Shown piece after piece: positions 7,949-50,860 of a stretch of 64,000 nucleotides of DNA. Under the pieces are notes generated by a model that saw nothing but the letters and a program-made list of their open reading frames with translations, searched no databases and was not told the DNA's origin. Each line of letters opens with the position of its first letter. Position 1 is the stretch's first letter. A program made the translations under genes and the position numbers. This DNA comes from Clostridiales bacterium. GTDB taxonomy: Bacteria; Bacillota; Clostridia; Christensenellales; Aristaeellaceae. Where the stretch lies: the NCBI GenBank assembly GCA_015056055.1, contig SVHC01000009.1, forward strand, positions 21,283 to 85,282, read 5' to 3'.

Positions 7949-8070
7949 TCTTCTTTATCCTCCATAGCGGCTGTATCTTTTGAATACGGTCGTTGCACAA
8001 TCGCTTCCGGCCGGACAATGTACAAAATCACGTACTCACCGTCTGTAATGATGACGGCGCGCAGTTTATT
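7945..8070 (-). pseudogene. remA: C-terminal remnant of remA (DUF370 regulator)
   Basis: Between yicC and gmk, where Clostridia normally carry remA, an open frame of 41 codons ends in ATGA overlap with gmk. It reads NKLRAVIITDGEYVILYIVR then PEAIVQRPYSKD. This lines up with the end of RemA family proteins (pattern RAVIxTDxxxVILxxVxPExxxxR). The roughly 50 N-terminal residues of RemA are absent: the frame meets a TAG at 8073-8071 and the preceding DNA is intact yicC. There is no credible start codon or ribosome binding site. I read it as a 5'-deleted pseudogene whose tail was kept for coupling to gmk; a short expressed peptide is less likely. The family match is from memory of the motif. Confidence 0.72.
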
Positions 8071-22585: not shown

Positions 22586-22601
22586 GTTGTCAGCGTTAAG
22601 A

Positions 22602-22696
22602 AACGCAAGGGGTGCTGGCGAAAGCCGGCTGAGATCGGGCATGAATGCCCGGGACCCTGGAACCTGATCCGGGTAATGCCGGCGTAGGAAAAGCAA
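22602..22696 (+). ncRNA. Thiamine pyrophosphate (THI-box) riboswitch
   Basis: The conserved core is clear: ggggtgctggcgaaagccgg, ctgagat, then gggaccctggaacctgatcc and gggtaatgccggcgtaggaaa. It lies between a strong promoter and thiT and would switch off thiT when thiamine pyrophosphate binds. Confidence 0.97.
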
Positions 22697-22712
22697 CCAT
22701 CACAGAGCATAT

Positions 22713-33581: not shown

Positions 33582-34292
33582 ATGACGAAAAAGCTGTTCA
33601 AGCGCACTGTTTTTCCCCTGATTCTGACGGCATACGCCTTCCTGTGTCAGGGCGGCGCATACGCCATTGCCCGCATGATCGCAGGCGGATGGGAAAAGAC
33701 CGATATCACCACTGCCTTTGACCGTTTGATTCCATTCGTGCCGTGGACGGTGGCCATATACTTTGGCTGCTATCTCTTCTGGATCGCGAATTACTTCATC
33801 TGCGCACGGGATGAAAGCGACGCGCGCGCACGGTTCTTTGCTGCGGATACGATTGCAAAGGGGATCTGCTTTGTCATTTTCCTTTTGTTTCCCACAACGA
33901 ATGTGCGTCCCGATGTTGCGGGGGATGGGGTATGGAATGCACTGATGCGCCTTCTGTACAGCATTGATTCGCCGGACAATCTTTTCCCCTCCATGCACTG
34001 CCTGATGGGCTGGTTCTGCTGGGTTGGCGTGCGGAGGCGAAGCGACATTCCGATGTGGTACAAATGGTTCTCCCTTTTGGGCGCGCTGGCGGTGTGCGTA
34101 TCTACGCTGACCACCTATCAGCATGTAATTGCCGACGTAATCGGCGGTGTGCTGCTTTCCGAAATCTGCTATCTCTTTGCAGGTGCAAACGGAATCCGCC
34201 GGGCAGCCGCGCGGGGAATTGAATGGCTTTACCGCAATATAGCCAAAATTCTGCATATATCCGCTGCGGATTTAGACGCATCTATCAGCTAA
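33582..34292 (+). CDS. PAP2-superfamily membrane phosphatase
   Basis: A 236-residue membrane protein with about six hydrophobic segments. The PAP2 active-site motifs are visible: FPTTNVRP, PSMHCLMGW (second motif with His) and TTYQHVIADVIGG (third motif with His and Asp). It may dephosphorylate phosphatidic acid, phosphatidylglycerol phosphate or undecaprenyl pyrophosphate. It follows rlmD by 21 bp and ends before a terminator. Confidence 0.85.
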   Translation: MTKKLFKRTVFPLILTAYAFLCQGGAYAIARMIAGGWEKTDITTAFDRLIPFVPWTVAIYFGCYLFWIANYFICARDESDARARFFAADTIAKGICFVIFLLFPTTNVRPDVAGDGVWNALMRLLYSIDSPDNLFPSMHCLMGWFCWVGVRRRSDIPMWYKWFSLLGALAVCVSTLTTYQHVIADVIGGVLLSEICYLFAGANGIRRAAARGIEWLYRNIAKILHISAADLDASIS

Positions 34293-34320
34293 GCCTTACA
34301 GGTGTTTTTTGACAAGCAGT

Positions 34321-38820: not shown

Positions 38821-38924
38821 TGTGAGAACCTCCTTATTTTTTCCTTGTGATTATATAATACCCGGAAATGGAAGGTTTGAAACACGGAATTTTTCTCTCC
38901 CTCGGTCAGCTTCGCTGCCAGCAT

Positions 38925-39050
38925 CCCTCAATTCGCAATAGTCATACGTCAGCGCTTTGCTTGCCGTATTCCTTTGCTCATTGGGCTTACTACGGCCTGT
39001 TTCCGCCACTGGCGGCGGCCTGCGTGCGCCCCTCGTCAGAGGGAGCCCGC
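38925..39050. repeat. Dispersed intergenic repeat, copy B
   Basis: About 125 bp matching copy A at 15949-16077 in the same orientation. It is preceded by ctccctcggtcagcttcgct, which could pair in part with the terminal cctcgtcagagggag. It ends about 10 bp before the left hairpin of structured repeat copy 1, so two unrelated repeats abut here. Confidence 0.85.
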
Positions 39051-39060
39051 TGTACACAAA

Positions 39061-39083
39061 AGCCCCCGCATTGCTGCGGGGGG
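39061..39083. repeat. Left flanking terminator hairpin of structured repeat copy 1
   Basis: gcccccgca-ttgc-tgcggggg, the same hairpin as 39319-39342. On the minus strand this copy is followed by CTTTTGTG, the T-rich tail expected of an intrinsic terminator. Confidence 0.8.
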
Positions 39084-39085
39084 AG

Positions 39086-39312
39086 TGTCAAAAATACTTG
39101 TAAGGGATAGATATGTCTAAATCCGCAGCGGCGGCGTGTACGCCGCGAGGAGCGTATTTTTTCGCAGGGAGCTTGCGTACCGAAGAAAAAATCGTTTCCT
39201 TGCAGATTTTACGGTCGAAATCTAAAAGATTTCAGTAAAATCTGGTGAGGGTGGCAGTGGCGGGGGAGTTTACTTCCCCGTCCACAAGGATGGCAAAAAT
39301 ACTTTTTTGACA
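39086..39312. mobile_element. Structured TIR element, copy 1 (227 bp)
   Basis: Starts with TGTCAAAAAT and ends with TTTTTTGACA (inverted ends). Contents in order: a variable left part, hairpin gcggcg-tgta-cgccgc, a gcgtattttttc / gaaaaaatcgt arm, the double stem cagattttac (39203-39212) / gtaaaatctg (39235-39244) enclosing gaaatct-aaa-agatttc, a conserved block gtgagggtggcagtggcggg, and hairpin ggggagtttacttcccc. There is no open frame. A second copy lies at 50581-50815. It sits between two copies of the pflA terminator hairpin. I call it mobile because of inverted ends, two loci and flanking duplications; a structured RNA gene is the alternative. Confidence 0.7.
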
Positions 39313-39318
39313 TCCTAC

Positions 39319-39342
39319 AGCCCCCGCATTGCTGCGGGGGCT
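39319..39342 (-). terminator. pflA-proximal terminator hairpin (right flank of structured repeat copy 1)
   Basis: agcccccgcattgctgcggg continuing gggct, placed 6 bp after the pflA stop. On the minus strand its T-tail is missing because the element follows; the tail is found at the duplicate, 39061-39083. Confidence 0.75.
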
Positions 39343-42308: not shown

Positions 42309-42461
42309 ATTCTTATACCTCTCTTTTCTGTGATGTAGGTCCTGCGAGAAAGCAAAAAGGCAGCTTTGCTCCTCGCAAAACTGCCCAGACGGTCGGCATA
42401 TAACACTCCACGTTTCCCTTGTGTTTTTCACAAATTCCGTCAGTCGCGTGAAGCCATTTAT

Positions 42462-50294: not shown

Positions 50295-50541
50295 CCCTCC
50301 CGCACAGCGTTTCTCTTCAAGCTATGCAGAGAGTCCCGGGAAGATTATCGGAAGAATTCCGAAGGCTCATTTTGCTCCGTTTATAAGTATATCACAGAAT
50401 AACCGAAAAAAGAAGCAAAAGACCTTCCTTTGCCAAAGAAAAAGAAGTACGCAGATTTCGATTCGGTATGAGAGGCGAAAACAGAAGTTTGTGGTACATC
50501 TCTTCCTCCGGCAGTTGCAGGCCGACTGGCGTCAATTGCAC

Positions 50542-50576
50542 ACATCCCCAGCCCGCAAACGCAGGCCGGGGATGTG
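50542..50576. repeat. Left flanking terminator-like hairpin of structured repeat copy 2
   Basis: acatcccc ... ggggatgt stem with a 17-base GC-rich loop, the same stem as 50821-50855 but a different loop sequence. Confidence 0.75.
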
Positions 50577-50580
50577 TTCT

Positions 50581-50815
50581 TGTCAAAAAACTAGTGTAGG
50601 ATTAGAGAAAAAGCATACTCAAATCCGCAGCGGCGGCGTGTACGCCGCGAGGAGCGTATTTTTTCGAAGGTAAGCTTGCGAGCTGTAGAAAAAATCGCTT
50701 CCTTGCAGATTTCACGCCCGGAATCCTATGGATTCCAGTGAAATCTGGTGAGGGTGGCAGTGGCGGGGGAGTTTACTTCCCCGTCCACAAGTCTGGCAAA
50801 AATACTTTTTTGACA
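50581..50815. mobile_element. Structured TIR element, copy 2 (235 bp)
   Basis: Inverted ends TGTCAAAAAA / TTTTTTGACA. From 50624 on it is closely similar to copy 1: gcggcg-tgta-cgccgc hairpin, gcgtattttttc / gaaaaaatcgc arm, and double stem cagatttcac (50706-50715) / gtgaaatctg (50738-50747) around ggaatcc-tat-ggattcc. The gtgagggtggcagtggcggg block and ggggagtttacttcccc hairpin follow. Stem differences from copy 1 are all compensated on the other arm. The left 40 bp differ in length and sequence. It is flanked by two acatcccc/ggggatgt hairpins and has no open frame. Confidence 0.7.
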
Positions 50816-50820
50816 GACTG

Positions 50821-50855
50821 ACATCCCCAGTCTGCGCTTGCGTGCCGGGGATGTG
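50821..50855 (-). terminator. Terminator hairpin of the MFS gene (right flank of structured repeat copy 2)
   Basis: Stem acatcccc / ggggatgt placed 5 bp after the MFS stop codon; followed on the minus strand by the element end rather than by a T-tract. Confidence 0.65.
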
Positions 50856-50860
50856 TTTGA

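Follow-up and report, generated by a model that had tools for sequence, protein, structure and literature searches.

A hairpin-flanked repeat of Clostridia with IS1182-type ends, whole-hairpin duplications and a covarying core

Introduction

Downstream of two genes of a Clostridiales bacterium lies a short repeat, each copy of which is held between two like hairpins. The arrangement raises the question of what placed the repeat there, and whether its paired structure is itself maintained by selection. Both copies lie within a 64,000-nt stretch of contig SVHC01000009.1 (assembly GCA_015056055.1), hereafter the window. A sequence-only reading of the window had proposed a non-autonomous element that inserts at terminators and duplicates them, with a fold directly shown to be under selection and no named family to fit it. 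Here we examine the copies in the window, in the rest of the genome and in related genomes, together with the transposases whose ends they share.

Results

Two copies at the ends of minus-strand genes

The copies lie where they had been placed, at 39086-39312 and 50581-50815, and re-reading of the window recovered both the inverted ends (TGTCAAAAA and TTTTTTGACA) and the enclosure of each copy by a pair of like hairpins, downstream of a gene on the minus strand. For the gene at copy 1 (pflA), Pfam supports a radical-SAM protein adjoining a pyruvate formate-lyase gene; that at copy 2 is an MFS transporter, likewise with Pfam support. The pflA hairpins form an exact 22-bp direct repeat (39061-39082 and 39319-39340). 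The left one, distal to pflA, is followed by a T-tract on the minus strand, while the right one (39319-39342) adjoins the pflA stop codon; a terminator consensus scan rated both as terminator-like, one per strand, the left on the minus strand. The MFS pair (50540-50577 on the left; 50821-50856 on the right, adjoining the end of the gene) has a common stem and differing loops, and neither member was flagged by the scan because their loops exceed its limit.

Between its hairpins, copy 1 opens on the plus strand with the left end TGTCAAAAA (39086-39094), an inverted repeat of the right end. The core follows on the same strand: helix P1 (39122-39151), with a conserved GCRUGUA loop and UCC/GGA closure in the RNAalifold consensus of alignment A2 (see below); hairpin P2 (39152-39195), variable in length and sequence in the consensus of 27 own-genome cores; hairpin P3 (39203-39244), which has an asymmetric GNCC/A internal loop and covaries strongly; and hairpin P4 (39257-39285), seen in the MFE fold, at or near which copies lacking ends stop. 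A fold-back right end (GGATGGCAAAAATACTTTTTTGACATCC, 39288-39315) completes the copy. Copy 2 carries its left end (TCTTGTCAAAAAA, 50578-50590), P1 (50624-50653) and P3 (50706-50747) on the plus strand, the two helices being placed by the A2 consensus and the sequence, and its fold-back right end (AGTCTGGCAAAAATACTTTTTTGACAGACTG, 50790-50820) has a reverse complement beginning CAGTCTGTCAAAAAAG. The three compensated pairs that had been reported between the copies are real, one in the outer stem (T-A to C-G) and two in the inner stem (A-T to G-C and T-A to C-G). Both copies fold better than shuffled sequences: the z scores are -5.3 and -6.0 on the two strands of copy 1, and copy 2 reaches -7.3 on its plus strand.

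Elsewhere in the window, 34262-34317 holds a piece of the element's left end, in minus-strand orientation, that includes part of P1. A repeat-like stretch at 38895-39055, beside copy 1, resembles by eye the nested second repeat described in the next section.

Anatomy and spread of the repeat

A DNA search of the own genome returned 47 matching pieces, which grouped into 40 places (40 of 65 initial candidates were scored, and two places are probably halves of one contig-split copy); a repeat in so many copies is not a chance occurrence. Complete own-genome copies follow one plan: a hairpin, a left end that mostly reads (TT)G[A/C]TTGTCAAAAAA, a variable stretch, the core P1-P4, a fold-back ending ...GTCTGGCAAAAATACTTTTTTGACAGACTG, and the hairpin again. 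Elements with the same plan and related ends occur in other genera (L119, L139, L143, L181, L055, L031 and L046, where L denotes a locus). The element is about 235 bp long, or up to 449 with a nested insert, ends in terminal inverted repeats and has no transposase of its own, as is usual for a MITE. The nested insert is a second repeat, starting GACGAACGAAGCGCGCGCCC and lodged after GGTGAGGG, in own-genome copies L020, L021, L025, L027, L028 and others.

The same DNA query matched 9 of 41 genomes, the own genome included. The covariance-model search in relatives that had been suggested was fruitful: model R1, built on the core, matched 69 of 151 family genomes and 27 of 50 genera, with at most 23 candidates scored per genome. 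An even draw across the order gave matches in 3 of 121 genomes (at most 29 candidates scored in each). The exact P1 motif was present in at least 117 stretches; the named records among the matches listed are Clostridia MAGs and include Candidatus Avichristensenella, Candidatus Faecaligallichristensenella and Christensenella sp. UBA4379. Collections of phage and plasmid records gave no match at E 1e-5.

The repeat also stands outside the known families of Rfam (release 15), as had been suspected, with no match to it above the gathering threshold in the window or in six loci. The only Rfam matches in the window are a TPP riboswitch (22598-22708, plus strand) and a ZTP riboswitch (42376-42457, minus strand), and at E up to 5 the sole overlap with a core in the six loci, at L129, scored 18.4 bits against a threshold of 123.

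Whole hairpins are duplicated at both-ended copies

Distinguished by their left flanks, 34 own-genome copies comprise 14 both-ended, 5 one-ended and 7 endless ones, the other 8 being at contig edges. A direct repeat of at least 14 bp joins the flanks of 13 of the 14 both-ended copies, the remaining copy (L029) having 11 bp, whereas none of 182 cross-locus flank pairs reaches 14 bp (maximum 10). Repeats of that length flank 2 one-ended copies and none of the 7 endless ones. In a many-genome set, 16 of 95 sites had repeats of at least 16 bp, as against 0 of 1125 random cross-locus pairs.

The duplicated stretch is a hairpin. In a set hand-picked as clear duplications, which reports centring and not frequency and does not include L332, the duplication was centred on the dyad exactly in 12 of 21 cases and to within 1.5 nt in 20 of 21. 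Locus L330, whose hairpin encloses a larger interval and whose insertion sequence has unlike hairpins, was left out for these reasons; with it the figures are 13 of 22 and 21 of 22. It is as though both feet of the hairpin had been cut. Flanking stems match and loops differ at L003 and L008, and one hairpin of L004 is apparently no longer complete. At L008 (also L075; G000:C40, about 7977-8036), the left hairpin has grown into a long palindrome, and the element's end is part of either side of it.

The earlier proposal is thereby supported for a non-autonomous element whose insertion sites are terminator-like hairpins, each of them duplicated whole; the target is duplicated on insertion (13 of 14 copies, against 0 of 182 pairs), again as in MITEs. 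In a search for an empty pflA site, nothing in the same-genus genome G001 matched at the chosen cut-off; 9 other genomes have pflA homologues, which carry no P1 motif in the stretch fetched and are too distant to serve as empty sites.

The ends match those of IS1182-family insertion sequences

A search for a transposase with the same ends led to the IS1182 family. In a related genome, an IS1182-family insertion sequence (L330) has one end that reads CAGTCTGTCAAAAAAGG and agrees with the element's right end, CAGTCTGTCAAAAAAG, in 16 of 16 letters. The left end of element L186 has 14 letters (CAGACCATCAACAA) in common with the insertion sequence at L338. Since a transposase family with these ends exists, the mobile shell is of a named kind; the earlier statement that no named family fits thus holds for Rfam but not for the shell, which fits IS1182.

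With the NCBIfam IS1182 model, 16 of 41 genomes gave matches (E up to 0.001), of which only that in genome G024 exceeded the model's cut-off. The IS1182 element of G024 has ends CAGCCTGTCAAA and an exact 21-bp hairpin duplication, and its protein as query found matches in 38 of 301 family genomes (E up to 1e-20). Among 30 IS1182-like loci fetched, 7 have the same hairpin at both ends (L327, L328, L329, L332, L337, L338 and L340), 4 have unlike hairpins (L330, L331, L334 and L339), 9 have a hairpin at one end and 10 have none that could be seen, several loci being truncated; these are not unbiased rates, as the end pattern was drawn partly from the same loci and only stem-adjacent matches were printed. 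At random positions, a stem of at least 8 was found in 7.2% of 6000 draws. Seven proteins were submitted to NCBIfam, and the five from the IS1182-like loci were IS1182 above cut-off. The other two, from L293 (near a core) and L294, were IS5, and their ends do not match, which removes these genes as candidates for the mover.

Pattern and family searches found no IS1182 gene in the own draft genome, where loss or an assembly gap is possible, so the transposase would presumably have acted in trans. The ends of core-bearing copies in G024 are unlike those of the IS1182 element of the same genome. Four core copies read in G248 are without these ends, yet that genome has a hairpin-flanked IS1182 element, and inspection by eye of ten core copies in G248 and G264 found no such ends and no duplicated hairpins.

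A covarying core, also found without the shell

Further copies, in the own genome and in other genera, keep their stems paired. Alignment A2 (28 sequences) has 24 consensus pairs by RNAalifold, with both sides changed in 15; 98.5% of its 672 cells pair, and 107 cells are double-changed, where shuffles give 26.9 and slid controls 9-16, figures to be read with the selection of the 28 from 49 aligned sequences, from 58 with a parsable P3 and from 127 unique stretches, which favours pairing. In 27 distinct own-genome cores, chosen by P1 and by the letters at the end of P3, the cells are 936 Watson-Crick, 19 G-T, 0 A-C and 17 other. The covarying core is real.

Several measures compare the two strands. 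Read on the plus strand, own-genome cores have G-T at 7 paired positions and A-C at none, and they fold better on the plus strand (-33.8) than on the minus (-18.1). Under a strand-neutral definition of helices, G-T exceeds A-C by 5 positions to 1 in the own genome and by 9 to 4 in A2. The pairing statistics lean towards the left-to-right strand.

Eight own-genome copies without a full end pair, a set that includes L017 (with a left-end-like motif in the flank analysis) and L025 (with a nested insert), keep 99% of 36 pairs. Six of the eight end within 3-14 nt of a stop codon that closes a convergent reading frame 80 or more codons long, a distance without a control. A codon model, trained on this window and applied to other genera too, assigns the right-hand gene to the minus strand at 20 of the 24 own-genome loci; in the other genera, tandem loci number 50 against 11. 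The core thus persists in endless copies that have no duplicated hairpins; it can be separated from the shell and is not just the content of a single MITE. One core copy, at L358 (G248:C79), immediately precedes the start of a gene with a product that is, by eye, polynucleotide phosphorylase-like.

Discussion

We consider the repeat to be an IS1182-type MITE, moved in trans, which duplicates whole hairpins and contains a structured core, separable from the shell and selected for its fold; we put the probability of this reading at about 80%. IS1182-family transposases would choose as target a hairpin, usually at a gene's end, and not a sequence. The element's ends would be joined at the two feet of the hairpin, presumably after a cut there, and repair of the long stagger would leave a whole hairpin on each side; a remaining hairpin and its T-tract may still end the gene's transcript. 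The matching ends, the hairpin duplications and their centring on the hairpin are seen directly in the sequences, and the shell is well supported, on sequence comparison, as a probable IS1182-type variant with whole-hairpin duplication. Against the reading as a whole stand the missing IS1182 gene of the own genome, the unlike hairpins at four insertion-sequence loci, the differing loops at L003 and L008, the want of a true empty site to hand, the end mismatch in G024, and the core copies of G248 without such ends.

The differing loops and the four loci with unlike hairpins would also suit an origin in which the two hairpins of a locus are no target duplication, one having been derived from the other by repair or by selection for a double terminator. 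We regard this as very improbable: most both-ended own-genome loci agree in their loops as well as their stems, the junctions do not vary, and the same duplication is seen at complete insertion sequences. The core might instead owe its movement to RNA copying or to another transposase, for instance one of the Y1 (REP-type) kind, with the IS1182-like ends as a later wrapping. The copies of the own genome and two other genera that lack such ends or duplications, the oriented placement, and the 50 to 11 tandem loci of other genera speak for another mover; but duplication tracks the ends (13 of 14 copies with them, 0 of 7 without), and no alternative mover was identified among the transposases examined, which were of the IS1182 and IS5 kinds. 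We hold this account to be unlikely.

The compensated changes are real, but they are not by themselves the direct evidence of RNA selection that they had been taken for, because template switching or selection on folded DNA could yield them. On that account, palindrome-correcting template switching, or selection on the folded DNA during transposition, would have produced the pairs in a core with no RNA function. G-T fills only 4 of 580 cells in the outer stem of P3, a scarcity that makes a folded DNA strand or palindrome correction possible and that counts against an RNA-only reading, which does not predict it. At L008 the hairpin has been extended into the element's end to form a perfect palindrome, so such correction may occur, and many stems are near-perfect. 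Against these points, the P1 loop is conserved and so is the asymmetric GNCC/A loop (the latter partly by choice, P3 having been sought with that loop), G-T but not A-C is seen on the plus strand, at 7 own-genome positions, with the strand-neutral counts of 5 vs 1 and 9 vs 4 in the same direction, and endless copies, outside any shell, still keep 99% of 36 pairs. We judge a core without RNA function to be somewhat unlikely. Our best guess, weaker than the rest of the reading, is that the core most likely works as a folded RNA of the left-to-right strand.

Within the IS1182-type reading, the nearest known systems are IS1272 and TnSha1, members of that family which insert at hairpins of variable sequence (PMC4923244, PMC5678879), several of them confirmed as terminators (PMC4923244). 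In the excerpts available, both delete the hairpin wholly or partly and do not duplicate it (PMC4923244, PMC5678879), and duplication of a whole stem-loop is drawn as a possible pathway only (PMC5678879). As far as those excerpts go, the present element resembles IS1272 and TnSha1 in the transposase family of its likely mover, in its hairpin target and in the variable target sequence, and differs in having a whole hairpin on both sides, a presence that does not fit hairpin replacement of the IS1272 type. The family is mixed, since ISCaa15, also IS1182, has 4-bp repeats (PMC3196728); the sites between convergent genes hold IS1182 elements in excess (PMC9208149). The pneumococcal BOX, RUP and SPRITE repeats appear, in the extracts to hand, as short, modular, multi-copy intergenic repeats that are foldable as RNA and probably non-autonomous, RUP and BOX pairing their inverted ends (PMC3049150). 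On that material we found no relation to them in sequence or target; unlike them, the present core covaries between genera and its element targets a hairpin.

Two further kinds of element occupy similar places. REP/BIME sequences are palindromic repeats near stop codons; the present element is much longer, and the apparent mover of its both-ended copies is IS1182. Group IIC introns insert after terminator hairpins, whereas here there is no Rfam intron match in the window or the six loci, and inverted ends with a hairpin on both sides are in keeping with a DNA transposon. A literature search that covered few subscription journals returned, among the matches listed, no description of the element or of whole-hairpin duplication by IS1182.

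The core may lead a double life, as a candidate RNA family of Clostridia that is selfish within IS1182-type shells and, free of them, a working part of host transcripts near stop codons; we offer this tentatively, as an idea with the odds somewhat against it. The many loci described here are natural evidence that a DDE transposase family can choose its targets by the shape of the DNA and leave a hairpin-long duplication, which suggests how such elements could occupy gene ends with little harm. The core itself is a testable candidate for a new, transposon-spread RNA family.
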